Shown here: positions 28,918-39,571 of the stretch, in pieces
How the letters are laid out: each line of letters begins with the position of its first letter
Numbering within the stretch: position 1 is the first letter of the stretch
NCBI RefSeq assembly: GCF_001056295.1
Contig: NZ_JVMD01000006.1
Location: forward strand, 186,232 to 250,231
Source of the DNA: Corynebacterium halotolerans
GTDB taxonomy: Bacteria > Actinomycetota > Actinomycetes > Mycobacteriales > Mycobacteriaceae
Direction: 5' to 3'
Length of the DNA stretch: 64,000 bases
Made by a program: the position numbers and the translations under genes
The notes under the pieces: generated by a model
Databases searched by the model: none
What the model was told of the DNA's origin: nothing
Seen by the model: the letters and a program-made list of their open reading frames with translations, nothing else

Positions 28918-29702
28918 TCGACGACGACGGGCGCGTGGTCCGAGGCGCCCTTGCCCTTGCGTTCCTCGCGGTCGATGAACGCGCCGGTGACGGTGTCCGC
29001 CAGCGCGGGGGTGGCCAGCTGGAAGTCGATGCGCATGCCCTGGCGCTTCTGGAACCGCAGCTGCTGGTAATCCCAGTACGTCCACTGGCCCTCGGTGTGG
29101 GGGCGGGTGACGTCGCGCCAACCCGCGTCCTGCACCGCCTCGAACGCGGCGCGCTCCGGGCCGGTGACGTGCGTCTTTCCCTCGAAGAACGCCATGTCCC
29201 AGACATCTTCATCGCGGGGGGCGATGTTGAAGTCGCCGCCGATCATGGCCTTGTGCGCCGGGTCGTCGTCAAGCGCGGCCCTGCCCGCGTCCCGCAGGGC
29301 CTCCAGGAAGCGGAGCTTGTAGTCGTAGTGCGGGTCGCCGACCTCGCGGCCGTTGGGCACGTAGACGCTGTGGACGCGCACGCCGCCGCAGGTCGCGGCG
29401 ATGTGGCGGGCCTCGGCGAGCTGCTCGGCCTCCTGGTCCTTGGCGAAGCCCGGCTGCCCCGGGAACCCCGCGACCACGTCCTCCAGGCCGACGCGGGAGA
29501 TGATGGCCACGCCATTCCACTGGTTCAGGCCGTGGTGGGCGACCTCGTAACCGAGCTCCTCGAAACGGGCGGACGGGAACTGATCGTCGCGGCACTTCGT
29601 CTCCTGCACCGCCATCACGTCGATCGCATGGCGCTCGAGCACGCCGACCATGCGGTCGAGGCGGGTGCGGGCCGAATTGACGTTCCAGACGCAAATACGC
29701 AT
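28905..29702 (-). CDS. xthA: Exodeoxyribonuclease III
   Basis: DNA repair nuclease (AP endonuclease and 3' exonuclease), 265 residues of the endonuclease/exonuclease/phosphatase fold. Motifs: RICVWNVNSARTRL at the N-terminus, AVQETKCRD near residue 35 (catalytic Glu), GGDFNIAPRDEDVWD near residue 150 and the ending GASDHAPVVVDYDV (catalytic Asp-His). I chose the ATG at 29700-29702; upstream in-frame sequence is basic and unrelated. A TACGGT box lies 6 nt before the ATG, so the transcript is probably leaderless. High confidence. Confidence 0.95.
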   Translation of the reverse strand: MRICVWNVNSARTRLDRMVGVLERHAIDVMAVQETKCRDDQFPSARFEELGYEVAHHGLNQWNGVAIISRVGLEDVVAGFPGQPGFAKDQEAEQLAEARHIAATCGGVRVHSVYVPNGREVGDPHYDYKLRFLEALRDAGRAALDDDPAHKAMIGGDFNIAPRDEDVWDMAFFEGKTHVTGPERAAFEAVQDAGWRDVTRPHTEGQWTYWDYQQLRFQKRQGMRIDFQLATPALADTVTGAFIDREERKGKGASDHAPVVVDYDV

Positions 29703-29708
29703 GCGGCA

Positions 29709-29714
29709 ACCGTA
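29709..29714 (-). promoter_or_regulatory. Leaderless -10 box (TACGGT) of xthA
   Basis: On the minus strand TACGGT is followed by 6 nt and the ATG at 29702. The same hexamer, followed by TTGCC, stands before the leader peptide at 50635. Confidence 0.55.
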
Positions 29715-29721
29715 CCCGCCG

Positions 29722-29747
29722 GGAACAAAGCGGAGGCCACGCGCGTT
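29722..29747 (+). promoter_or_regulatory. Candidate ECF-type promoter for the RDD gene
   Basis: GGAAC (29722-29726), a 17-nt spacer and CGTT (29744-29747) resemble the SigH/SigE-type actinobacterial consensus GGAAY-N17-19-CGTT. It lies 44 nt before the RDD protein start at 29791. This is a weaker case than the three-fold motif further downstream. Confidence 0.4.
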
Positions 29748-29790
29748 GGATGGGTCGACGGATGCGCGAGGCGGAAAGGTGGTATCCGGC

Positions 29791-30435
29791 ATGAAGGCAG
29801 ATCGAATGCGGGTGGACCCGTTCACGACCGCGAACCCCAACGAATTCGACCCGTTCGCGCGCGCGACGACCCACCCCGCGCCCTTCGTGGCACGAACCCC
29901 CGTGCCCGCCGACCACCCGCTGCTCGGCCGGCCGCGCCACCCGTGGATCACCCCGGCCACCGCCGCCGCGGCCGAAGCCCTCGGCTACGACCCCGAAGCC
30001 GTCAACGCGCCCCTGATCAAGCGCTTCGGCGCGGTATTCGTCGACGCCGCCGTCTACGGCGTCCTGCTCGCCGTGCTCATGGTCATCGCCGGCGTCTTCG
30101 GCCCCGCCGACGCCGCCCCGACCGTGGCGGTAGCCGCCCTGTTCGCCGGCCCGGCGGGCTTCTACCTCTACCGCGCGATGGGCGACGCCATCTTCGAGGG
30201 CTCGCCCGGCAAACACGCCCTGGGCCTGCACATGGGCGGGCCCAACGGCCTGCCCGTCTCCGGGACCGACGGCCTGCGCCGCAACCTGTGGATCCTGCCG
30301 TCGATGATCCCCGGCCTCGGGTGGATCGTCAGCCTGGCCATGATGGGCTGGATCGGCCTGAGCGCGGGAAATGACCCGCTCGGCCGCGGAGGGCACGAGC
30401 GGGCCATCGGCACCCGCGTGACCGAGAAGGACTAG
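29791..30435 (+). CDS. RDD family membrane protein
   Basis: A 214-residue protein with a hydrophilic N-terminal 75 residues (containing DPF repeats: RVDPFTT, EFDPFAR) and a C-terminal RDD domain with three hydrophobic segments, from IKRFGAVFVDAAVYGVLLAVL near residue 80; RDD signature residues are R82, D89 and the later EGSPGKHALGL. RDD proteins are small membrane proteins of largely unknown function, some linked to ion transport. The ATG at 29791 follows GGAAAGGTGG; the open frame extends upstream but overlaps the xthA promoter without a better start. Confidence 0.82.
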   Translation: MKADRMRVDPFTTANPNEFDPFARATTHPAPFVARTPVPADHPLLGRPRHPWITPATAAAAEALGYDPEAVNAPLIKRFGAVFVDAAVYGVLLAVLMVIAGVFGPADAAPTVAVAALFAGPAGFYLYRAMGDAIFEGSPGKHALGLHMGGPNGLPVSGTDGLRRNLWILPSMIPGLGWIVSLAMMGWIGLSAGNDPLGRGGHERAIGTRVTEKD

Positions 30436-30451: not shown

Positions 30452-30943
30452 CTACGTCCCGACCGGATCGATGTTGATCGAGTCGACCACGCCGTCGCCG
30501 TCGAAGTCGTAGTGGCGGGTGTCGAACTCGCCGTCGCCGTCGGTGTCGTACAGGAGCGCGTCGGCCACCCCGTCGGGGTCGAAGTCGTAGGCGCGGGCAT
30601 CCGGCTCGCCGTCCCCGTCGAGGTCGAAGTCGATCTTGTTCGCCATCCCGTCGTTGTCGTAGTCGGAGATGGTCGCGTCCACGTCGCCGTCGCCGTCGAC
30701 GTCGACCTGGATCTCGTCGATCTTGCCGTCGCGGTTCAGGTCGGACTTCGAGACCACCAGATCCGGGTCGATGGAATCGACGATGTCGGACATGTCGCCG
30801 AAGGGCAGGTTCCCGAACTCGGGGGCGGGGGCGTCCGACGCCGGCTGCGGCTGCGGCTGGGGCTGAGTCTGCTGGGGCTGGACCTTCGTCTCGTCGCCGC
30901 GGACGTCGTTGATGAACTGGGTGAAAACGTTGTTGCCGGACAT
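30452..30943 (-). CDS. Acidic DxDxDG-repeat protein (putative Ca2+-binding), small paralogue
   Basis: A 163-residue protein with an N-terminal MSGNNVFTQFINDVRGDETK region, a Gln/Pro-rich linker (about residues 22-35), and from residue 50 a run of eight or so units of the form DxDxDGxxDxxxxD (for example DVDGDGDVDATISDYDNDG). Such units resemble EF-hand loops, dockerin or thrombospondin type-3 repeats and should bind calcium. There is no signal peptide or membrane segment, so it is predicted to stay in the cytoplasm unless exported by a special route. The start is ATG at 30941-30943. A two-box ECF-type promoter lies about 48 nt upstream. It is a paralogue of the next gene. Function unknown. 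Confidence 0.85.
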   Translation of the reverse strand: MSGNNVFTQFINDVRGDETKVQPQQTQPQPQPQPASDAPAPEFGNLPFGDMSDIVDSIDPDLVVSKSDLNRDGKIDEIQVDVDGDGDVDATISDYDNDGMANKIDFDLDGDGEPDARAYDFDPDGVADALLYDTDGDGEFDTRHYDFDGDGVVDSINIDPVGT

Positions 30944-30990
30944 GATGTGCCGTTCCTCTCGGTGGACTGTCGCCTTGTGGCCTGTTCACC

Positions 30991-31023
30991 GATGAGATGC
31001 GCCGGCCGCACGGAAAGTTCCCG
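30991..31023 (-). promoter_or_regulatory. ECF sigma-type promoter, copy 1
   Basis: On the minus strand: CGGGAACTTTCCG (31023-31011) as the -35 region, 16 nt between GGAAC and GCATC, then GCATCTCATC (31000-30991) as the -10 region. The same two boxes precede the acidic genes starting at 31963 and 38414. It is the probable target of the sigma factor encoded at 37429-37977. Confidence 0.75.
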
Positions 31024-31108
31024 GTCGGCGGACATCTTCTTCGCTTTACGACGAAACCGGCGCCCCCGCCGAAATGGCGGGGACGCCGGGGCGTCGTCAA
31101 GCGAAGGG

Positions 31109-31963
31109 TTAGGCGTTCAGACCTTCCGCGCCCGTGTCGGCCGCATCGTCCGAGCCGCCGTAGTTCGGGTCCTCCTCCACCGCGTCGACGATGCCGTCGC
31201 CGTCGGTGTCGGAGTAGCGGATGTCCGTGTAACCGTCGTGGTCGCGGTCGATTTCGAGGGAATCGATGCTGCCGTCGTGGTTCTCGTCCGACCACACGTG
31301 GTCGACGCGGCCGTCGCCGGAGGTGTCCACGTGGAGCTCCGCGAAGTTGTCGCCCACCGGCTCGCGCATCTCGGCGTCGACGATGCCGTCGCCGTCCAGG
31401 TCGAGGGAGAGGGTGTCCACCACTCCGTCGCCGTCGGTGTCGTTCGCCGCGAGGACCTTCGCCGAATCCAGGTCGATGGTCCCGTCCGGGCCGGAGACCT
31501 GGCCGTAGACCTCGTACTCGCCCGAGTCGACGTTGGACGACTGGCCATGGTCGGCGGCGCGCTCGGGAGCCGGCGCGGGGGCCGCCGAGGCCGGGGGAGC
31601 GGTGGTGCCGTTCACGAACTCGTCGACCTCCGCCTTGGTGTTCAGCGTGGTGTCCAGGTTAGCGTCGCCGGTCGTGTCGAACTGAACCGCGTCGACCTCG
31701 CCGTCGCCGTCCAAGTCGGTGACGACGGTGTCGATGTACCCGTCCTTGTCCAGGTCCATGACGATCTGGTCGATGGAGCCGTCGCCATCGAGGTCCGCGG
31801 TGGACTTCACGTCGGCGGCGGACTCCTCCAGAACCTCGTCGAGGCTGATGCCCAGGCCGGACTCGGGGGCGGGGGCCGTGGCGTCCGCCTGCGCCTCAAC
31901 CGGGTTCTGCGGCTGGTTCTGATCGGTGGTGCGGTCGGTGGTGCGGTCGTCGTTTCCGGACAT
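31109..31963 (-). CDS. Acidic DxDxDG-repeat protein (putative Ca2+-binding), large paralogue
   Basis: A 284-residue protein with the same start (MSGN) as its neighbour. A hydrophilic N-terminus is followed by a first block of DxDGDG units (about residues 57-95, DLDGDGSIDQIVMDLDKDG), a Ala/Pro-rich spacer (about 118-140), and a second block of about seven units (about 172-270). No signal peptide or membrane segment is visible. Repeats have the spacing of calcium-binding loops with hydrophobic/beta residues between them. The ATG is at 31961-31963 and the conserved ECF-type promoter begins 54 nt upstream. It is divergent from the dynamin operon. Function unknown; a calcium-dependent scaffold or sensor is conceivable. 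Confidence 0.85.
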   Translation of the reverse strand: MSGNDDRTTDRTTDQNQPQNPVEAQADATAPAPESGLGISLDEVLEESAADVKSTADLDGDGSIDQIVMDLDKDGYIDTVVTDLDGDGEVDAVQFDTTGDANLDTTLNTKAEVDEFVNGTTAPPASAAPAPAPERAADHGQSSNVDSGEYEVYGQVSGPDGTIDLDSAKVLAANDTDGDGVVDTLSLDLDGDGIVDAEMREPVGDNFAELHVDTSGDGRVDHVWSDENHDGSIDSLEIDRDHDGYTDIRYSDTDGDGIVDAVEEDPNYGGSDDAADTGAEGLNA

Positions 31964-32016
31964 TGTCTCGATCCTCTCGGGGGTCGCTTCTGCGGTGGTT
32001 TTCCGCGTTGGTCGAC

Positions 32017-32050
32017 GATGTGATGCGCCGACCGGTGCGGAATGTTCCCG
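32017..32050 (-). promoter_or_regulatory. ECF sigma-type promoter, copy 2
   Basis: On the minus strand: CGGGAACATTCCG (32050-32038) and GCATCACATC (32026-32017), with 17 nt between GGAAC and GCATC. It drives the 284-residue acidic protein and sits in the same intergenic region as the start of the dynamin operon. Confidence 0.75.
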
Positions 32051-32093
32051 TTGCCGGAAGATTATCCACGACTATTTTCGTGGGGGCACCTTT

Positions 32094-32138
32094 ATGATGT
32101 CGAACGACCCATCCGACCCGAAGTTAGGACACGAATGA
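32094..32138 (+). CDS. Possible 14-residue leader ORF overlapping iniA
   Basis: ATG at 32094 opens MMSNDPSDPKLGHE, whose TGA (32136-32138) overlaps the iniA ATG in the ATGA manner seen throughout this window. GGGGG lies 7 nt upstream as a possible ribosome-binding site. The alternative reading is that TATGAT (32093-32098) is the -10 box of the operon, in which case this ORF is not translated. I cannot decide between these. Confidence 0.3.
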   Translation: MMSNDPSDPKLGHE

Positions 32139-33991
32139 CGGCGACGCAGGCCGACGCACGCGCCGCGCTGCGGCGCGAAGTCGAATCGGCGGCGAAGACC
32201 CTGTCGTCCGCGCTGAAGATCCTCGACCGCTACGGGCACCGGGACGCCGCCGAGGCGATCCGCCGGACCTGGGGCGACACCGCCCTGCGCGGCACCGTCG
32301 TGGTCGTCGGCGAGGTCAAGCGCGGCAAGAGCTCGGTGATCAACGCCATCACCGGCGCCCGGGATCTGCTGCCCGTCGACGTCGACGTCTGCACGTCCGC
32401 TCCCGTCCAGGTGCTGCGGTCGGACGAGAACACCGAGGTCATCGACCTGAACTTCGGCGACCACATCGAGCGGGCGCCCCTGGCGGAACTGCGGGAATGG
32501 TCCACCATGACGGGAGCCCGCGTCGCCGACCCCGACACCCCCGAGCTGCCCACCGGCGTGACCGTGCGCGTGTCCGGCGACCACGTGCCCAGGGCGCTGT
32601 TCATCGACACCCCCGGCGCCGGCGGCTTGGACCGCGACGCCATCGACGTGGCCCTGGAACGCGCCCGCGGCGCCGGCGTGCTGCTCATGGTCTGCGACGC
32701 GACGACGCCGATCACCGCGCCGGAAATGGAGATCCTCGCCCGCGCGGCGAAGGCGGCGGGCTCCGTCATCGTCGCCGTGACCAAGACGGACAAGAACCTG
32801 CGGCGCTGGCGGGCCATCGTCGCGGACGACCGCCGGCTGATCCGCCGGCACCTGGGCCGCGACGTGCCCGTCATCGGGGTGTCCAGCCTGCGCGCCGTCG
32901 ACGCCGCCGAAATGACGGACCCCGAGCGCCGCGCCCGCGTCGAGCGCACCTCCGGCATCGCGGAGCTGCGCGGGCGCATCAGCGCCGAAATGGCCCGCGG
33001 CGCGCTGCTGTCCAAGGTGGCCGCGCTGTCCATGGCCGAATCCGCGCTGGAGGGCGTCACCGCCACCATCGACAAGGACCTCGCCGCCGTCGACCGCGCG
33101 GAGGAAGTCGTCCCGGAACTCGAGGCGCGGCGCGACGAGCTGCGCCGCCTGCGTGACCACGGCCAGGAATGGGAGCAGATCCTGGCGCGCAACATCACCG
33201 TCGCCAGGCAGTCGATCATGGCCGGCTTCGACGCCGAAATGGACCGCATCCGCGAGCACTGGATCCGCACGATCAACGGTTCCGGCATGAAGGTGCTGCG
33301 GTCGAAGCCGCAGGTGTTCACCTCGCGGATCGAGGAGGAGCTGTCGGCGGCCGCCGAGACGACCGTCAACCGGCAGCTGGAGGTGCTGCGCCGCGAGGCC
33401 CACGCCCTGTTCGGCGACGACCACGAATGGGAGGCGATGGCCGGGGCGGCGCTGATGAGCATCGCCCCCGGTTCGGGCTCCGACGGCCGGCACTCGGTCG
33501 CGTCGAAGACGGAGAACCTGCTCGACCCGGGCATGGTCACGCTGGGCATCATCTCGGGCCCGGCGATCGCGTCGGCGGGCGGCGGCGCCCTGGCCGCGAT
33601 GGGGCTGGCCACCATCGCCCTGCCCGCGGCCGTCATCGGCGGCGGCTGGCTGGGCGTGAACATGGCGTACCGCGCCATGCGCAACGGCAAGCAGCACCTG
33701 GTCACGTGGACGCGCGAGACGGTGGCGGCGCTGCGCATGAGCGTCAACCGCAACATCGACACGCTGGTGACCACGGTGCGCACGGAGATCGTGCTGCGTT
33801 ACCGGGCCCGACTGCGCCGCGAGGGCGACGAGCTCAAGCGCCGCATCGAGGACGCCCGCGCCGCCGCCCGCGCCTCGGAGGAGGAGCGCCGGCAGACGCT
33901 GGCCAGGCTCAACCGGAACAAGGAGATCGTGGCCAAGATCCGCGGGGACCTGGCCACCTCCGCGGGCACGCTGAGGGGAGTGGGGCGCTGA
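32135..33991 (+). CDS. iniA: Dynamin-like GTPase, IniA type
   Basis: Large membrane-remodelling GTPase of 618 residues. G1 is GEVKRGKSS (59-67), G3 DTPGAGG (158-164), G4 TKTD (216-219). A helical stalk follows, then a hydrophobic Gly/Ala hairpin (about 467-510: GIISGPAIASAGGGALAAMG and on) that should insert in the membrane, and a charged coiled-coil C-terminus (about 540-605). This is the layout of mycobacterial IniA (about 640 residues), a bacterial dynamin with membrane fission activity, induced by cell-wall antibiotics. The ATG at 32135 follows TAGGAC. Its stop overlaps the next gene (TGATG), as expected for an iniA-iniC pair. Confidence 0.85.
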   Translation: MTATQADARAALRREVESAAKTLSSALKILDRYGHRDAAEAIRRTWGDTALRGTVVVVGEVKRGKSSVINAITGARDLLPVDVDVCTSAPVQVLRSDENTEVIDLNFGDHIERAPLAELREWSTMTGARVADPDTPELPTGVTVRVSGDHVPRALFIDTPGAGGLDRDAIDVALERARGAGVLLMVCDATTPITAPEMEILARAAKAAGSVIVAVTKTDKNLRRWRAIVADDRRLIRRHLGRDVPVIGVSSLRAVDAAEMTDPERRARVERTSGIAELRGRISAEMARGALLSKVAALSMAESALEGVTATIDKDLAAVDRAEEVVPELEARRDELRRLRDHGQEWEQILARNITVARQSIMAGFDAEMDRIREHWIRTINGSGMKVLRSKPQVFTSRIEEELSAAAETTVNRQLEVLRREAHALFGDDHEWEAMAGAALMSIAPGSGSDGRHSVASKTENLLDPGMVTLGIISGPAIASAGGGALAAMGLATIALPAAVIGGGWLGVNMAYRAMRNGKQHLVTWTRETVAALRMSVNRNIDTLVTTVRTEIVLRYRARLRREGDELKRRIEDARAAARASEEERRQTLARLNRNKEIVAKIRGDLATSAGTLRGVGR

Positions 33992-35388
33992 TGGATGCCG
34001 TGACCCAGGAGATCGACCGGGCGCTGCACGCCCTGGCCGCGGGCGGCGGCGATCTGCCGGACCACGCCAACCGGTTGGGCGGGATCCTGTTCTCCCCGCC
34101 GCGGGTGCTGGTGGTCGGCCGGCTCAAGGCCGGCAAGTCGACGCTGGTCAATGCGCTGATCGGCGAGAACGTCGCGGCGACGGGCACGTTGGAGACCACC
34201 AACGCCGTCACCGTCTTCCGCCACGGCGCGCCGTCGCGGGCGGAGGTCGTGGGCAACGACGGCCGCCGCGAGCGGGGAGTGCTTGACGACGGCGTGCTCG
34301 TCGACGTCCGCCGCCCCGTGCCTGAGGTCGCCTACGTCGACCGTTTCCTGCCGTCGGCAGCGGTGGAGCGGATGACCATCATCGACACCCCCGGCATCGC
34401 GACGCTGACGGTGGAGAACCGCGACGCCACGGAGCGGGCCCTCATCGACGGGTACGCCCAGACCCGCGACGCCTCCGTCGACGCCGATGCGGCGGTGTTC
34501 CTCTTCGATTCCTCGCCGCGCATGGACGAGCGCCAGTTCATCGGCAAGCTGGGGTTCACGCCCCTGAACACCGTCGGCGTGCTGGCGCGCGCGGATTCCT
34601 TCGGCGAGGGGGCGTTCGGCCGCCGCGACCCGCTGGAGCACGCCGACCGCTACTGCGGGGTGCTGCGCGGGCGGCTGGGCTCGCTGATGGCCGAGGTCGT
34701 GCCGGTGTCCGGGCTGATGGCGGAGTCCGCGGCGACGGGGCGGGTCACCGAGCCCGTGGCGCGAGCCGTGGCGGATCTGGGCCGGCTGGAGCCGGAGGAC
34801 CTCGTGGAGGAGCTGGAGACCGACGAGCCGACGCGCATCGACGCGCGCCTGCGGAACCGGGCGCTGGATCTGCTCGGCGAGTACGGCGTCGCCCGCGGCG
34901 CGGGAGTGGCGGCGCAGGGGGCGGTGGCCCTCAACGAGTGGCTCGAGGAGCGGTCGGGCATCGCCCGTCTGCGGCGCGTCCTGGAGGGCGGGCTGCTGCG
35001 CTACGCGGCGCTGGGCCGGGCGGCGCGACTGCTGCATCAGCTGGAGTTGCTGGGGTATTCGCACCCGCTTTCCGCCCACGTCCGCCACGTGCAGGGGGTG
35101 CTGGCGGGCCGGCCGGCGATGGCGCCGGTCATGCTCTTCACCGCGTACCGGGGGCTGGCGGCGACCTCCCCCGATTCGCCCCTGATGCCTTTGCTTTACG
35201 ACGCCTTGACCGGCGGGAATTCCGCCGAGAAGCTCGGGCTTCCGGCGGCGGCGGATCCGTCGCAGGTGCGGCTGAGGGCGCGGGAAATGTACGACGAGTT
35301 GCAGCGCATGGCGCTTCTGGGACGATCTGCGGCGGAAGAAGACTCCCGAGTTCGCCTGCTCGCGATGGTCTCGGCACTGTTAAGCTGA
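33991..35388 (+). CDS. iniC: Dynamin-like GTPase, IniC type
   Basis: Second, shorter GTPase of 465 residues, partner of the preceding one. G1 is GRLKAGKST (43-51), G3 DTPGIAT (132-138), with ARAD near residue 205 in place of a canonical NKxD. The C-terminal half is helical and lacks a clear membrane hairpin, as in mycobacterial IniC (about 490 residues). Paired bacterial dynamins commonly act as heteromers. The ATG shares its A with the iniA stop, and the Hsp70-like gene follows after 28 nt, so the three probably form one operon. Confidence 0.83.
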   Translation: MDAVTQEIDRALHALAAGGGDLPDHANRLGGILFSPPRVLVVGRLKAGKSTLVNALIGENVAATGTLETTNAVTVFRHGAPSRAEVVGNDGRRERGVLDDGVLVDVRRPVPEVAYVDRFLPSAAVERMTIIDTPGIATLTVENRDATERALIDGYAQTRDASVDADAAVFLFDSSPRMDERQFIGKLGFTPLNTVGVLARADSFGEGAFGRRDPLEHADRYCGVLRGRLGSLMAEVVPVSGLMAESAATGRVTEPVARAVADLGRLEPEDLVEELETDEPTRIDARLRNRALDLLGEYGVARGAGVAAQGAVALNEWLEERSGIARLRRVLEGGLLRYAALGRAARLLHQLELLGYSHPLSAHVRHVQGVLAGRPAMAPVMLFTAYRGLAATSPDSPLMPLLYDALTGGNSAEKLGLPAAADPSQVRLRAREMYDELQRMALLGRSAAEEDSRVRLLAMVSALLS

Positions 35389-35416
35389 CCGAATCGTTGA
35401 GGAACCCGAAAGGAAC

Positions 35417-37432
35417 ATGACCATGTCCGGTTGGCGTTTGGCCATCGACTTCGGAACGTCCAACACGGCCGCCGCGCACCGCGCCGCGGCCACCGGTCAG
35501 GGCGGGCCGGCCGCCGAGGCGCTGGCGTTGTCGCACCACGGCAACCTGCTGCCATCGGCGGTGTTCGCGGATGGCCAGGGCCTGCTCGTCGGACATGTGG
35601 CGTTGAATCAGGCCGAGGGCCGCCCCGATGCGTTCCTGCCGGAGCCCAAGCGCGCCGTCGGTTCCGAGACCGTGCTGCTGGGCGGCACCAGGATGCCGGT
35701 GGCGGAGGTCATCGGCGCGGTGATCGGGTCGGTGCTCGACCGGGCCCGCCGCTTCGCCGGCGGCTCCATGCCGGACGACGTCGTGCTCACCCACCCCGAG
35801 GGCTGGGGGCATACCGAACTGGTCCGCCTGATCGAGGGCGCCGAGCGCGCCGGGATCGAGCGCCGGCGGCTGTCGCTCGTGTCGGAGCCGCGGGCGGCGA
35901 CGTACTGGTACTCGTTCAAGCGCCCGCTGCCGCCGGGGCAGAAGGTCGCGGTGTTCGACCTGGGCGGCGGCACGCTCGACGTGGCGGTGCTGACGCCCGC
36001 CGCCGACGGTTCGCTGCAGGTCATCGCAGCGCGCGGCGACAATTCTCTCGGCGGCCGCACCCTCGACGCCCGCATCCGCTCCTGGGTGGAGGCCGAGCTC
36101 GAGGAGAACGACACCGAGCTCCTGCGCGCGCTGCGTTCGGGGGCGGCGGGGGCGTCGCTGGCGCTGGACCGCGCCATCAAGACGGCCAAGGAAGTGCTGT
36201 CGGAGGCCCCGCGGGCGACCATCACCGTCGCCGCCAAGGGGCGCGAGACCACCCTGATGCTCACCCGCGGCGAGTTCGAGGAGCTGATCAAGCCCGACGT
36301 CGACCGTGCACTGGACGTCACCCGGGCGACGCTTCTCGACGCCGGCCTGCGCCCGGATCCGTCGACGCCGCTGTACCTGACCGGCGGTTCGGCGCGGATC
36401 CCCTACATCCAGGACCGGTTGGGCGAGCTGTGCCAGGTGGCCACGCTCGACGACCCGAAGACGGTGGTCAGCCGCGGTGCGCTGATGGGCCCGACGCGCC
36501 GGGCCGACGACGTCGTCGCCGGCGTGACCACGTGGATCGCCCCCGGTTCCATCGCCGCCGGCGCGGGACCGATGGCGGTCGCCCCGGTGCCGCCGGTCCA
36601 GACTCCGCAGAATGCGCCCCGGCCGCAGCAGCAGCCCCGACCGCAGCCGCATCCCCAGCAGCAGACCCGGCCCCAGCCGCAGCAGTTCCGGCCGCAGCAG
36701 CCCTATGCGCAGATGCCGCCGCATGGCGGCCCCGCCAACCCCTACGCAGGGCAGGGCCGCCCCCAGCAGCCGCAGCAGTTTGCCGCGGTGCCCAGCTCCG
36801 TCTCATCGAAGGATGCGGGCAAGTCGAGGACGACGGTTTTCGCCGTCTTCGGCATCGCCGCACTGCTGCTGGTCGGCGGCGGAATCTGGGCCGCGCGGTC
36901 CGGCGGCGGCGAGGGCGTCGACGGCGGGGAGACCACCACGCCGACGGCGGCCACGACCACGGATGCGGGGGGCTCGAAACCGACCTCGCCGTGGCCGACT
37001 CCGGCGCCCACGGATTACAAGGAGGCGACGGATACCGTTCGGGACCGCCTGCCCGAGGGGCTGGCCCGTGGTTTGCAGCAGTGCAACGCGACCGATACGT
37101 CGATCAGCGTCGGCCTGGTCAGCGAGAAGGTTCCGGGTTACCTGTGCGGGTACGAATACAACGGCGGCGGGAGCACCAGAACGGAGCCGACGATCGGCAG
37201 CATCGCGCCGGACCCCCAGATCGTGGATGCCGTGCGCCGCGCCGGCGAGCGCACCACCAGCGACCTCGAGACGCTGTCCGACAAGGATGGCAAGGCCATC
37301 TACCTCTATTCCTCCGACACGTTCGCGTATTTCCTTTACGTCGACGACGCCGGCGGCTACGTGTACAGGTCCGGCCACGTCGACTCCGCGGAGTACGTCC
37401 GCACATTCCTTCGCAGCAGGGGCCTGATCTAG
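35417..37432 (+). CDS. Membrane-anchored Hsp70/DnaK-like protein
   Basis: A 671-residue protein with an actin-like Hsp70 ATPase domain (about 6-365): AIDFGTSNTAAAH (phosphate 1), VFDLGGGTLDVAVL near residue 179 (phosphate 2), YLTGGSARIPYIQDRL near residue 319 (adenosine). The DnaK substrate domain is replaced by a Gln/Pro-rich linker (about 390-455), one membrane helix (about 473-494) and an extracytoplasmic domain of about 175 residues with two cysteines (QQCN, YLCGY) that may form a disulphide. An inside ATPase joined to an outside domain suggests transmembrane signalling or envelope assembly. It ends in a 4-bp overlap (CTAG) with the convergent sigma gene. RBS GAAAGGAA; start ATG 35417, or ATG 35423. 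Confidence 0.85.
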   Translation: MTMSGWRLAIDFGTSNTAAAHRAAATGQGGPAAEALALSHHGNLLPSAVFADGQGLLVGHVALNQAEGRPDAFLPEPKRAVGSETVLLGGTRMPVAEVIGAVIGSVLDRARRFAGGSMPDDVVLTHPEGWGHTELVRLIEGAERAGIERRRLSLVSEPRAATYWYSFKRPLPPGQKVAVFDLGGGTLDVAVLTPAADGSLQVIAARGDNSLGGRTLDARIRSWVEAELEENDTELLRALRSGAAGASLALDRAIKTAKEVLSEAPRATITVAAKGRETTLMLTRGEFEELIKPDVDRALDVTRATLLDAGLRPDPSTPLYLTGGSARIPYIQDRLGELCQVATLDDPKTVVSRGALMGPTRRADDVVAGVTTWIAPGSIAAGAGPMAVAPVPPVQTPQNAPRPQQQPRPQPHPQQQTRPQPQQFRPQQPYAQMPPHGGPANPYAGQGRPQQPQQFAAVPSSVSSKDAGKSRTTVFAVFGIAALLLVGGGIWAARSGGGEGVDGGETTTPTAATTTDAGGSKPTSPWPTPAPTDYKEATDTVRDRLPEGLARGLQQCNATDTSISVGLVSEKVPGYLCGYEYNGGGSTRTEPTIGSIAPDPQIVDAVRRAGERTTSDLETLSDKDGKAIYLYSSDTFAYFLYVDDAGGYVYRSGHVDSAEYVRTFLRSRGLI

Positions 37433-37977
37433 CCCGCTCCCACGCCCGCCTCGACCAGCGCCGCCTTCAGTTTCGCGCGGCCGCGGTTGAGGCGGGTTTT
37501 CACCGTCGCCACCGCCACGCCCTGATGGTCCGCGATGTCCTGGTACGTGAAGTCGGCGTATTCGCGCAGCACCACGGCTTCGCGGAACTCCGGCGCCAGC
37601 TGCGCCAGAGCGGCGCGAACCACGTCGACCGTCGTCACGCGATCCGACACTCCCGGCGCCCGGTCGACCTCGTCGTCGCCGGCGTCGGACTCCGGGGTTT
37701 CGCGGCGCTTGCGCACCAGCATCAGCGCCGCATTGGCGGCGATGCGGTGCATCCACGTGGAAAAACGCGAATGCCCCTCGAACCGGTTCAAATTGCGCCA
37801 ACCGGCGATGAGCGCATCCTGCAGCGCGTCCTCGGCGTCCTGCCGATGCGACGTGATGGACAGGCACACGGCCCACAGATGATCGCGATGCGGCGCCACC
37901 AACTCCCGGAACGCGCCCGAATCACCCTCGCGGGCGCGGGCCACCAGGTCCAGTTCCACATCGCGATCGCGGCTCAT
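37429..37977 (-). CDS. ECF-type RNA polymerase sigma factor
   Basis: Sigma-70 group 4 factor of about 182 residues. Region 2 is about residues 20-85 (FRELVAPHRDHLWAVCLSI, DAEDALQDALIAGW, FSTWMHRIAANAAL) and region 4 about 120-172 (LAQLAPEFREAVVLREYAD, YQDIADHQGVAVATVKTRLN), joined by an acidic linker. No zinc-binding anti-sigma gene lies beside it. I give the ATG at 37975-37977; GTG codons at 37989 and 37992 are alternatives that overlap the stop of the acidic gene upstream. It is the second gene of an operon whose promoter (38488-38520) matches those of the two DxDxDG proteins, which points to autoregulation. Confidence 0.9.
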   Translation of the reverse strand: MSRDRDVELDLVARAREGDSGAFRELVAPHRDHLWAVCLSITSHRQDAEDALQDALIAGWRNLNRFEGHSRFSTWMHRIAANAALMLVRKRRETPESDAGDDEVDRAPGVSDRVTTVDVVRAALAQLAPEFREAVVLREYADFTYQDIADHQGVAVATVKTRLNRGRAKLKAALVEAGVGAG

Positions 37978-37985
37978 GAACCGTC

Positions 37986-38414
37986 TCACCACTCCATTCC
38001 GGGGTCGGCGTCGCCCATGTCCGGCGACGGATCGACATCGGCGTCGTCCGCCGCGTCGATTCCGGCGAGGTCATCGACGCCGTCACCGGCGCCCGGATCC
38101 CCGGGCAGCACGGGCACGTCGTCGAAGCCGTCGACGTCCGGGTGCACGGCACCGGCGTCCTCGGGGGCGTCGGGGGCGTGACCGTCGTCGATCGGGTCGT
38201 CGAGGGGGTCGTCGGCGTCGTCGGCCAGGGAGATGGCGTCGAGGTCGTCGTCGGCCGGCGCGTCTTCCGGGGCGTCGTCGGGGACGATCGAGTCGTCGAC
38301 GTCGTGGGCGTCCGGGTCGAGGGCGTAATCGAGAAGCCCGTCGAAGACGTCGGCGTCGAGGTGCATCGGCGCGGTCTCGGCCAGGTTCAGGTCCGGCTGG
38401 TTGTCGTCGAGCAT
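37986..38414 (-). CDS. Very acidic protein co-transcribed with the ECF sigma factor
   Basis: A 142-residue protein with about one third Asp/Glu and almost no basic residues. The N-terminus (MLDDNQPDLNLAETAPMHLDADVFDGLLDYALDPD in part) has some hydrophobic spacing; the remainder is Asp/Ala/Pro repeats such as DDAPEDAPADDDLD without full DxDxDG loops. No signal peptide, membrane helix or cysteine is present. Its stop is 8 nt from the sigma ATG (or overlaps the sigma GTG), so the two are translated together. It could be a sigma-binding regulator, a metal buffer, or a functional partner of the two repeat proteins. I do not recognise a family. Confidence 0.75.
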   Translation of the reverse strand: MLDDNQPDLNLAETAPMHLDADVFDGLLDYALDPDAHDVDDSIVPDDAPEDAPADDDLDAISLADDADDPLDDPIDDGHAPDAPEDAGAVHPDVDGFDDVPVLPGDPGAGDGVDDLAGIDAADDADVDPSPDMGDADPGMEW

Positions 38415-38487
38415 GGCACCTCCCTTTCTGGAGGGGAATTATTCCATGGCACGCGCGCGGAAGGAACGCGATTCATGGTGGGTCGCC

Positions 38488-38520
38488 GATGAGATGCTCC
38501 GGGGCGCGGAAATGTTCCCG
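38488..38520 (-). promoter_or_regulatory. ECF sigma-type promoter, copy 3 (sigma operon)
   Basis: On the minus strand: CGGGAACATTTCCG (38520-38507) and GCATCTCATC (38497-38488), with 16 nt between GGAAC and GCATC. It lies 74 nt before the acidic protein and sigma factor, directly after the stop of the acetyltransferase gene. It implies that the sigma factor drives its own operon. Confidence 0.75.
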
Positions 38521-38524
38521 GGAA

Positions 38525-39571
38525 TCAGCCGGTCCAGACCGCGTAACGGTGGCGGTGGTGCTCGCCGAAGCCCAGGCTCCGGTACAGGGCGACGCCCGCC
38601 TCGTTGCCCGAGGCCACCTGCAGGTAGCACTCGTCGGCGCCGTTGGCCGCGCCCCAGTGCATCATGTGCAGGCCCATCAGGGTCCCCAGTCCGCGGCGGC
38701 GCAGTTCGGGGGTGACCTCCACGGCGGAAAAGCCCAGCCAGCGGCGGCCGTCGCCGGACTCGGTGAGCGCCCCGCGGGTGATGGCGACGGTGCGGGGCGC
38801 GCCATCGCCCTCGTCGAGCAGCAGACGGCCGAAGCACATGCGGCCGTCGATGTCCTCGCGCAGCAGCTGCAGCGCCCGGCGCGGCAGGGCCCGGCCGCGG
38901 AAGTGGTACAGCGCCAGCCATTCCTCGTCGGGCTGGTCGAGGACCTCCGCGCGGATGCCGGGCAGCGCGTCCGGGGCCGACGGCTCGGGCAGGTCGTCGG
39001 CCGAGCGCGTCATGACGATGATGTCCGGCCCAATCTCCCACCCCTCGCCGGCGACGAGCTGCTCCGCGGGCCGGCAGATCCGGTCCGGCACGGCGATGCG
39101 CACCGGCAGGCCGTGGCGGCCGTAGAACGCGCGGATCTCGTCGAGCGGCACCGGCGCCGTGCCCGCGCCCGGTCCGATCGGCAGGGCCGAATTGGAGCGT
39201 TCGGTGATGCCGTCGCCCGCGCGCATCAGCCACTGGCCCGCCCACGTGTGCTCGATGCCGGGGAACGCTTTGGCCGTGGCGGTCTCCACTGCGCGGATGT
39301 CCGAGTTGCGCACCACCTTGTCGGGCAGCGCCTTGACCACCAGCACGCGGAAGGGGGAGAAGTCGACGGGTTCGCCCTCCTTCGGACGCACCACCAGCGG
39401 GTCGAGCGATTCGACGTGGCCGATGAGGTCGGTGACCTTCTTGCCGGACACCGCGGCCTCCTCCGGCGTCAGCTCGCGGCGCACGATGACGCGCCTGCCG
39501 ACGGCGACGTCGCCCACGCCCCAGCGGGACGTCGGCAGGCCGGGGGAGTCGGGGTACTCGGGCAGGCTCAT
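38525..39571 (-). CDS. N-acetylglutamate synthase, Cg3035-type GNAT protein
   Basis: Probable first enzyme of arginine synthesis, acetylating glutamate with acetyl-CoA. The 348-residue protein has an N-terminal SH3-like/barrel portion (about 1-75: [25 protein letters not shown]), a middle region and a C-terminal GNAT domain (about 235-348) with the acetyl-CoA loop [15 protein letters not shown] and [17 protein letters not shown]. glutamicum Cg3035, next to def and xthA, has this layout and was shown to make N-acetylglutamate. The ATG at 39569-39571 overlaps the def stop (ATGA), so the two are one operon. A longer upstream reading would overlap def. Confidence 0.85.

Follow-up and report, generated by a model that had tools for sequence, protein, structure and literature searches.

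Introduction

Why would an actinobacterium keep a pair of dynamin-like GTPases, a transmembrane Hsp70 and several very acidic proteins next to an extracytoplasmic function (ECF) sigma factor? The question is raised by a gene cluster at positions 30452 to 38520 of a 64,000-nucleotide stretch of contig NZ_JVMD01000006.1 from Corynebacterium halotolerans, the whole of which we call the window. Bacterial dynamins are widespread, and their triggers and partners are mostly obscure; here a dynamin pair is accompanied, across several actinobacterial orders, by a sigma factor, a promoter and partner proteins that appear to be dedicated to it. By comparing sequences, we show what genes the cluster holds, that its promoter is enriched, that it is conserved across orders and that its dynamins separate from the iniBAC clade. 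We propose, with a probability of roughly one half, that the locus forms a conserved actinobacterial module whose sigma-driven acidic proteins, dynamin pair and transmembrane Hsp70 together reshape or reseal the membrane. Given what look like a dedicated sigma factor, promoter and partners, manipulating a single gene could activate or abolish the whole regulon. Other features of interest are a possible new type of partner for sigma factors, an Hsp70 turned into a membrane protein and a protein family, probably intracellular, that forms ladders of 13-residue repeats. What is new is the system; every part is a member of, or is similar to, a superfamily already known. The original prediction for this DNA, made from the letters alone, knew of no description of the combination, and we found none in the open-licence literature searched (subscription literature and ECF classification tables were outside its scope).

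Results

The cluster consists of a plus-strand operon encoding, in order, an IniA-like dynamin, an IniC-like dynamin and the Hsp70, together with minus-strand genes for the acidic proteins Acid1, Acid2 and Acid3 and for the sigma factor. Genes were called with a codon-usage script made for this analysis. All genes that the original prediction had named are in place and on the strands it gave, Acid3 lying 8 nt before the sigma gene on the same strand. Its further claim, that these genes are functionally linked, gains from their being kept together across many genera despite rearrangement. A search of 121 genomes of the family with the sigma factor returned 43 matches at E<=2.6e-40 (loci L008-L050; L and G numbers are our handles for loci and genomes), among which L027 and L028 of G045 are probably one locus assembled twice on two contigs, both being counted. 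An IniC-like dynamin lay in the stretch at 33 of the 43 strong sigma matches versus none of seven weaker ECF loci. Dynamin-bearing sigma loci usually also hold IniA, Hsp70 and DxDxDG genes, in varying order and strand, and the profile counts across the 43 loci were IniC 33, IniA 31, Hsp70 28, DxDxDG 27, Acid3-type 39 and C39-like 8. At some of the ten sigma places without the dynamin a contig end truncates the stretch, and G045 has its dynamin about 20 kb off. Counted per genome, the sigma factor and a module-type IniC occur together in 35 of 121, IniC alone in two and neither in 79, the remainder holding the sigma factor only (Fisher 1.2e-22); the genes are conserved together in related genomes, one of the two points on which the original prediction had said it could fail.

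A search from the dynamin side used an IniC alignment made from loci that carry the sigma factor. Of 374 matches the best 80 were kept, all at named loci (overlapping the 121-genome set), and 70 of these loci have the sigma factor. Module genera include Rhodococcus, Gordonia, Williamsia, Skermania, Hoyosella, Dietzia and Speluncibacter, and further Gulosibacter, Actinoplanes, Nocardioides, Aeromicrobium and Nakamurella; the Nakamurella stretch, at a contig end, holds IniC, sigma and the Acid3 type only. Most of the set occurs together in Micromonosporaceae, Microbacteriaceae and Nocardioidaceae too. Among 197 genomes taken class-wide, a dynamin at E<=1e-60 was found only in the window genome and G194, with the sigma factor within about 5 kb in both; this count is a lower bound because the first look scored few candidates. 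A chance neighbourhood is ruled out by the control loci, the clustering across genera and the genome-level co-occurrence. The window genome itself (3.15 Mb) carries a second, divergent module (L049, C5:272132-280059) with a dynamin pair, a DUF7373 lipoprotein, a transmembrane Hsp70, an acidic protein and its own sigma factor, the last 48% identical to that of the window. Two loci deserve separate mention. L169 (G028) has a cluster of dynamin, Hsp70 and DxDxDG genes in a genome with no sigma match at E<=1e-20, a possible case of loss of control. L109, in a record titled Kitasatospora arboriphila NRRL B-24581, is nearly identical to the locus of Williamsia muralis, and its counterpart L012 joins L009 and L010 on very short branches in the IniC tree; the record name is probably wrong.

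The acidic genes have a common ECF-type promoter, which follows the sigma factor into other orders. The predicted sigma promoters of the window, all on the minus strand, are GGGAACTTT-N14-CATCTCATC for Acid1 (30991..31022), GGGAACATT-N15-CATCACATC for Acid2 (32017..32049) and GGGAACATT-N14-CATCTCATC for the Acid3-sigma operon (38488..38519). The pattern GGGAACWTT-N{12,16}-CATC matches three times in the 3,154,822 bases of the genome, once before each acidic gene unit (sites beginning at 31022, 32049 and 38519, with spacers of N14-15), and the reversed pattern not at all, so the earlier claim of one motif common to the three acidic genes stands. Across 19 sigma-carrying relatives (about 89 Mb) there were 42 matches, 26 of them within 10 kb of the sigma gene versus 0.19 expected; the reversed pattern gave five. 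Three of the 19 had no match, and in G101, G107 and G116 none lay near the sigma gene.

When spaced word pairs were counted de novo, GGAAC-N18-CTCC and GGGAA...GCAT/CATC came out on top. Of the fuller motif, GGGAAC(A/T)T(T/C)-N12-16-C(A/T)(T/C)CnnA, we counted 38 sites across the 43 loci from which it was derived, 48 across 60 named Mycobacteriales loci and 27 across 18 other-order loci, where 16 loci have at least one. Seven loci of other ECF factors and 13 iniBAC-type loci have no site, and the reversed motif is absent from all five locus groups. Because the motif was derived from Mycobacteriales (L008-L050 and the window), the counts made there lack independence; those from the other-order loci are independent (Micromonosporaceae, Microbacteriaceae and other Micrococcales, Nocardioidaceae and Nakamurella, with L120 and L129 dropped as Mycobacteriales). 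At the named Mycobacteriales loci the strict motif precedes 19/62 DxDxDG, 15/40 Acid3-type and 1/11 other short acidic genes, as well as 0/54 IniC-like, 1/56 sigma and 10/615 other genes. With the relaxed motif, taken within 200 nt upstream in the 18 other-order loci, 31 of 47 acidic genes have a site (C39-like 7/7, DxDxDG 19/25, other short acidic 5/15) versus 1 of 172 other genes (Fisher 9e-25), the reversed motif giving none; in these orders it precedes 3/18 IniA-like, 0/21 IniC-like, 0/16 Hsp70 and 0/19 sigma genes. The A of CATCnnA, which the search did not require, is invariant in 57 CATC sites before module genes in all named loci. The sigma factor very probably reads and drives this promoter, because the two occur together from genome to genome and we recognised no further DNA-binding family among the genes of the set.

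All 16 pattern matches lying more than 10 kb from the sigma gene in the sigma-carrying relatives were inspected. They precede another DxDxDG protein (G079), a 111-residue protein with hydrophobic segments (G079, G120), proteins judged by eye to have a hydrophobic, signal-like N-terminus (G044, G107, G025) and, in G025 at 10.5 kb from the sigma gene, a moderately acidic 384-residue protein. The remaining far matches have no convincing downstream gene and may be due to chance. The far copies at L142, L143, L144 and L152 precede the 111-residue protein and Ser/Thr-rich proteins whose N-terminus resembles a signal; these are candidate regulon members.

The ECF sigma factor (37429..37977, minus strand; about 182-187 residues) consists of regions 2 and 4 only (Pfam Sigma70_r2 58.8 bits, r4_2 52.8 bits) and matches ECF structures. 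The GGAAC-type promoter before its operon is present and specific, and autoregulation is predicted. Upstream lies Acid3 (37986..38414, minus strand; 142 residues), which has a conserved N-terminal motif and an acidic tail, and counts 49 Asp and Glu and no Lys or Arg. The motif, W/F-x3-L-x2-A-x-D-P-x(n)-D-x2-L-V-P, is well kept in 41 aligned sequences (W 33, L 33, A 40, D 34, P 30; the LVP part 30, 29 and 35 of 40), ten of which come from other orders and were picked by eye; the window protein has F in place of W. Neither Pfam nor NCBIfam holds a family matching Acid3 up to E 0.1, hence no known anti-sigma domain. Searching proteins for the family gave 31 matches, none with a Pfam domain, the six that bear a name being called 'hypothetical protein'; window Acid3 is 96% identical to a protein labelled Corynebacterium hansenii. 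The original prediction had spoken of acidic DxDxDG proteins, which is right for Acid1 and Acid2, with their 13-residue ladders, and not for Acid3, a member of a separate, sigma-linked family.

What might Acid3 do? In G020, G046 and G063 (L044, L045 and L046; probably of the genus Hoyosella), where no module dynamin was listed, the sigma factor and the GGGAACTTT -35 box are kept, and the upstream protein (62, 46 and 62 residues) carries the motif without the acidic tail, the 46-residue protein of L045 having its first half without the LVP half. Because these three dynamin-less genomes retain sigma factor, -35 box and a motif-only protein, we propose that Acid3 binds the sigma factor, and that the motif belongs to the sigma factor and the tail to the module. 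Taken together, a sigma-binding restraint with a reporting tail has, by our analysis, about an even chance of being the correct description. It competes with a simpler view, in which Acid3 is merely another acidic effector and the sigma factor, having no protein partner, is set by transcription alone. Acid3-type genes do lie away from the sigma gene in some loci, and in some Micromonosporaceae the sigma gene follows IniC, but the motif-only protein stays with the sigma factor where the dynamin is absent, and the same-strand gene directly before sigma is strongly acidic at 24/44 sigma loci versus 0/7 control loci; we regard the simpler view as a serious contender that probably falls short. At L037 (G080) the sigma match contains one in-frame stop codon, which may reflect a broken gene, a later start or misassembly, and IniA lies on the strand opposite IniC.

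The Hsp70 gene (35417..37432, plus strand; 671 residues) begins 28 nt after the IniC-like gene. Its product scores 105.1 bits with the HSP70 profile (best stretch residues 94-355), and the match ends at 368 of 599. A nucleotide-binding domain (about 1-370) is followed by a linker, a hydrophobic transmembrane segment (about 472-490) and an ectodomain (about 534-667), and no C-terminal substrate-binding domain was found. The GGGT and Lys columns are invariant in the alignment, as are two ectodomain cysteines in 22 sequences. In the predicted model, residues of about 378-529, including the transmembrane segment, form a low-confidence stretch, and the ectodomain block has predicted local distance difference test (pLDDT) values of 46-87. 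The 50 Foldseek matches listed for this model were all Hsp70/DnaK entries, none on the ectodomain, and the isolated ectodomain had no Pfam match. Two relatives supply a natural fusion: in L024:15060-17558 (832 residues) Pfam places DUF7373 domains after the Hsp70 domain, and L025:15043-17544 (833 residues) is its near copy. In other clusters the DUF7373-type lipoproteins have genes of their own (three scanned with Pfam, more seen), some of them behind the promoter. A group of genes at first taken for a short Hsp70 in fact comprises these lipoproteins, linked to Hsp70 through the two fusions. Fusions and separate genes together suggest a link to the envelope.

Acid1 (30452..30943, minus strand; 163 residues) is made of successive 13-residue repeats, and Acid2 (31109..31963, minus strand; 284 residues) has two blocks of them; they hold 42 and 74 Asp and Glu residues and 8 and 11 Lys and Arg. 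Across the DxDxDG proteins a spacing of 13 residues is the most frequent (186 cases; the next most frequent spacing has 18 cases). The AlphaFold model of Acid1 (mean pLDDT 77.9, with repeats at 83-94 in blocks) is a ladder of four-residue strands placed every 13 residues, without helix-loop-helix. Plain membership of EF-hand or DUF6802 is rejected, both scoring below cut-off (Acid2 with EF-hand_5, 18.7 versus 25.9), and no open-licence paper on DUF6802 was found. The DxDxDG proteins are probably cytosolic, because a hydropathy scan (no signal-peptide predictor was run) detected no hydrophobic segment in 37 family members including Acid1. Relatives also encode a C39-like acidic protein (L029, Peptidase_C39_2 at 43.2 bits, cut-off 24), present at 8/43 sigma loci, 14/60 named Mycobacteriales loci and 8/20 loci of the third group; in the 26 kb around the window cluster no such gene was found.

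The dynamins are encoded by adjacent genes with intact P-loops: IniA-like at 32135..33991 (plus strand; 618 residues, alternative open start at 32042, P-loop GEVKRGKSS) and IniC-like at 33991..35388 (plus strand; 465 residues, P-loop GRLKAGKST), with one base in common in the junction TGATG. Pfam Dynamin_N scores 64.8 bits (1.3e-17) and 51.2 bits respectively against a cut-off of 27, and a hydrophobic segment starts near residue 463-498 of the IniA-like protein in eight of eight sampled relatives. The window dynamin is 91% identical to its counterpart in C. xerosis NBRC 16721. Mycobacterium smegmatis IniA cuts membrane tubes in vitro (PMC6715688), and since the IniA-like protein matches that IniA (6j72, E 3.8e-13), the window dynamins may fairly be inferred to remodel membranes.

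That they are the mycobacterial IniA and IniC, as the label 'iniA- and iniC-type' in the original prediction suggested, was not supported. IniC scores across the family genomes are bimodal (E<=4e-76 versus about 1e-33 to 1e-54), and a maximum-likelihood tree of 72 IniC rows (L008-L050, L118-L137, L158-L175 and the window), on which the separation of the dynamin clades rests, places 13 iniBAC-type rows apart from 59 module rows with support of 100/100; the exact placement of one iniBAC-type row, L158, on a long branch, is unsure. The sigma factor is present at 53/59 module loci versus 0/13 iniBAC-type loci, and both IniC types occur in 26 of the 37 genomes that have the module type. Orthology of the window dynamins with iniBAC is ruled out by the separate clade and the bimodal scores, leaving a distant homology.

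The flanks of the cluster are ordinary: on one side, at 29650-30435, lies the gene of an RDD-family protein, and on the other that of a CG3035-family N-acetylglutamate synthase, which ends at 38525. One near-identity search of a plasmid collection gave no match.

Discussion

How far does this evidence carry the proposed module? Several observations weigh against it. The dynamin-Hsp70 operon of the window has no promoter copy, and among Mycobacteriales the strict motif is seldom found before IniA-like (2/61), Hsp70 (1/59) or C39-like (0/14) genes. The fuller motif is present at only 20/43 sigma loci and 29/60 named Mycobacteriales loci, the second module of the window genome has no site beyond a near-match before another gene, and in the reduced loci of G020, G046 and G063 the -10 box has no clear match. 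Five of the 121 family genomes hold the sigma factor without the dynamin; class-wide the module is rare, in at least 2/197 genomes, and four more genomes (G008, G188, G215 and G253) have a sigma match at E<=1e-50 and no such dynamin. A DxDxDG-like gene lies near the stretch end in 2/7 control ECF loci. Acid3-type genes are not always beside the sigma gene; the motif occurs in other orders, where the Acid3 model, trained on loci later counted, detects it at 5/19 sigma loci and more are recognised by eye. Finally, a Foldseek search of the PDB with the Acid1 model gave weak matches, none at E<=0.001.

In the module as we picture it, the ECF sigma factor would switch on its own operon and the acidic repeat genes through the GGGAACWTT...CATCnnA promoter. 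The N-terminal motif of Acid3 would bind and restrain the sigma factor, in the manner of the minimal anti-sigma factor CnrY, and its acidic tail would report on the module. Through the Hsp70, an extracytoplasmic domain, which two relatives have fused to DUF7373, could be coupled to a cytosolic ATPase whose task is to drive or gate the dynamins and not to fold clients; judging from the domain layout, we hold this role of coupler to be a little less than an even bet. The DxDxDG ladders may bind divalent cations and serve as an intracellular buffer, a scaffold or a membrane-associated filament at sites of damage, a suggestion that we make tentatively. Together with these sigma-induced products, the dynamin pair and the Hsp70 would remodel or reseal the cell membrane; that the system senses the envelope and repairs the membrane is what we infer from the gene set. 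It is tempting to go further and to imagine a membrane emergency system in which the Hsp70, its client-binding domain exchanged for an extracytoplasmic sensor, reads damage across the membrane, a minimal sigma-binding peptide of a new class, with a hyper-acidic tail, frees the dedicated sigma factor, intracellular cation-binding ladders flood the site and the dynamins reseal the membrane, although this whole sequence of events is rather unlikely to be right in full.

The same parts can be arranged otherwise. The dynamins and Hsp70 might form vesicles or an export site, with the acidic proteins as signal-less cargo whose supply is set by the sigma factor. The dynamin pair, transmembrane Hsp70 and DUF7373 lipoproteins do point to the envelope, the DxDxDG proteins have no hydrophobic segment, and the tube cutting described for IniA (PMC6715688) would suit vesicle formation. 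No export motif or sign of cargo was found in these proteins, however, and a sigma-binding motif would favour a cytosolic Acid3, so that we consider export improbable. Less probable still is a module for phage defence or other conflict, in which the dynamins protect membranes or kill infected cells and the sigma factor is the trigger. Its distribution is patchy, relatives encode a C39-like protease-type protein, and in PADLOC the IniA-like protein matches LeoA (3.8e-12) and LeoBC (8.2e-12) and the IniC-like protein does so weakly (4.1e-5 and 1e-4). Such Leo matches would be expected from dynamins generally, and the other seven proteins scanned gave no match or a marginal one (E 0.003-0.006). 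We know of no defence system with an autoregulated ECF promoter kept across orders. Finally, that the locus is iniBAC under another regulator, that is, ordinary IniA and IniC orthologues with local passengers, is highly improbable, for although M. smegmatis IniA and the IniA-like protein are homologous over nearly the full length (residues 47-608 of 618), the split of the IniC tree, the distribution of the sigma factor across it and the genomes holding both IniC types all speak against it, as does the regulation of iniBAC by IniR (PMC5760070).

We return to the proposed module of sigma-driven acidic proteins, dynamin pair and transmembrane Hsp70, and compare it with systems already known. With iniBAC it has in common the adjacent dynamin genes, IniA-like followed by IniC-like, the distant homology to M. 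smegmatis IniA 6j72 and Hsp70-type genes, which lie within about 10 kb of 12/13 iniBAC-type loci (L159-L168, L174 and L175). Some of these may be dnaK itself, as in M. tuberculosis. The differences are the separate dynamin clade, the ECF sigma factor, transmembrane Hsp70 and acidic proteins of the window locus, and the control: iniBAC-type loci have no promoter site, and iniBAC is activated by the ATPase IniR (PMC5760070). Operons often encode dynamin-like proteins in pairs, which can tether membranes, and Campylobacter DLP1/2 and LeoA/LeoBC are likewise unequal dynamin GTPases encoded side by side; unlike the module, they come with no mention of a sigma factor, an Hsp70 or acidic repeat proteins in the available part of that source (PMC6104087).

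The individual components invite the same comparison. In class II anti-sigma pairs such as CnrH-CnrY, the ECF sigma factor also has a GGAAC-type -35 box and a short partner, of the kind proposed here; CnrY wraps around the outside of its sigma factor (PMC8103513), whereas Acid3, a putative binder, is extremely acidic, is often encoded upstream of the sigma gene and is without a Pfam or NCBIfam family. DxDxDG loops relate Acid1 and Acid2 to DUF6802 and EF-hand proteins, from which they depart by their sub-cut-off scores and by a strict 13-residue tandem ladder in place of helix-loop-helix. DnaK and HscA have the nucleotide-binding domain with its GGGT loop, and Hsp70/DnaK nucleotide-binding domains are the best fold matches of the window Hsp70; where those chaperones have a substrate-binding domain, it has a linker, a transmembrane segment and a two-cysteine ectodomain.

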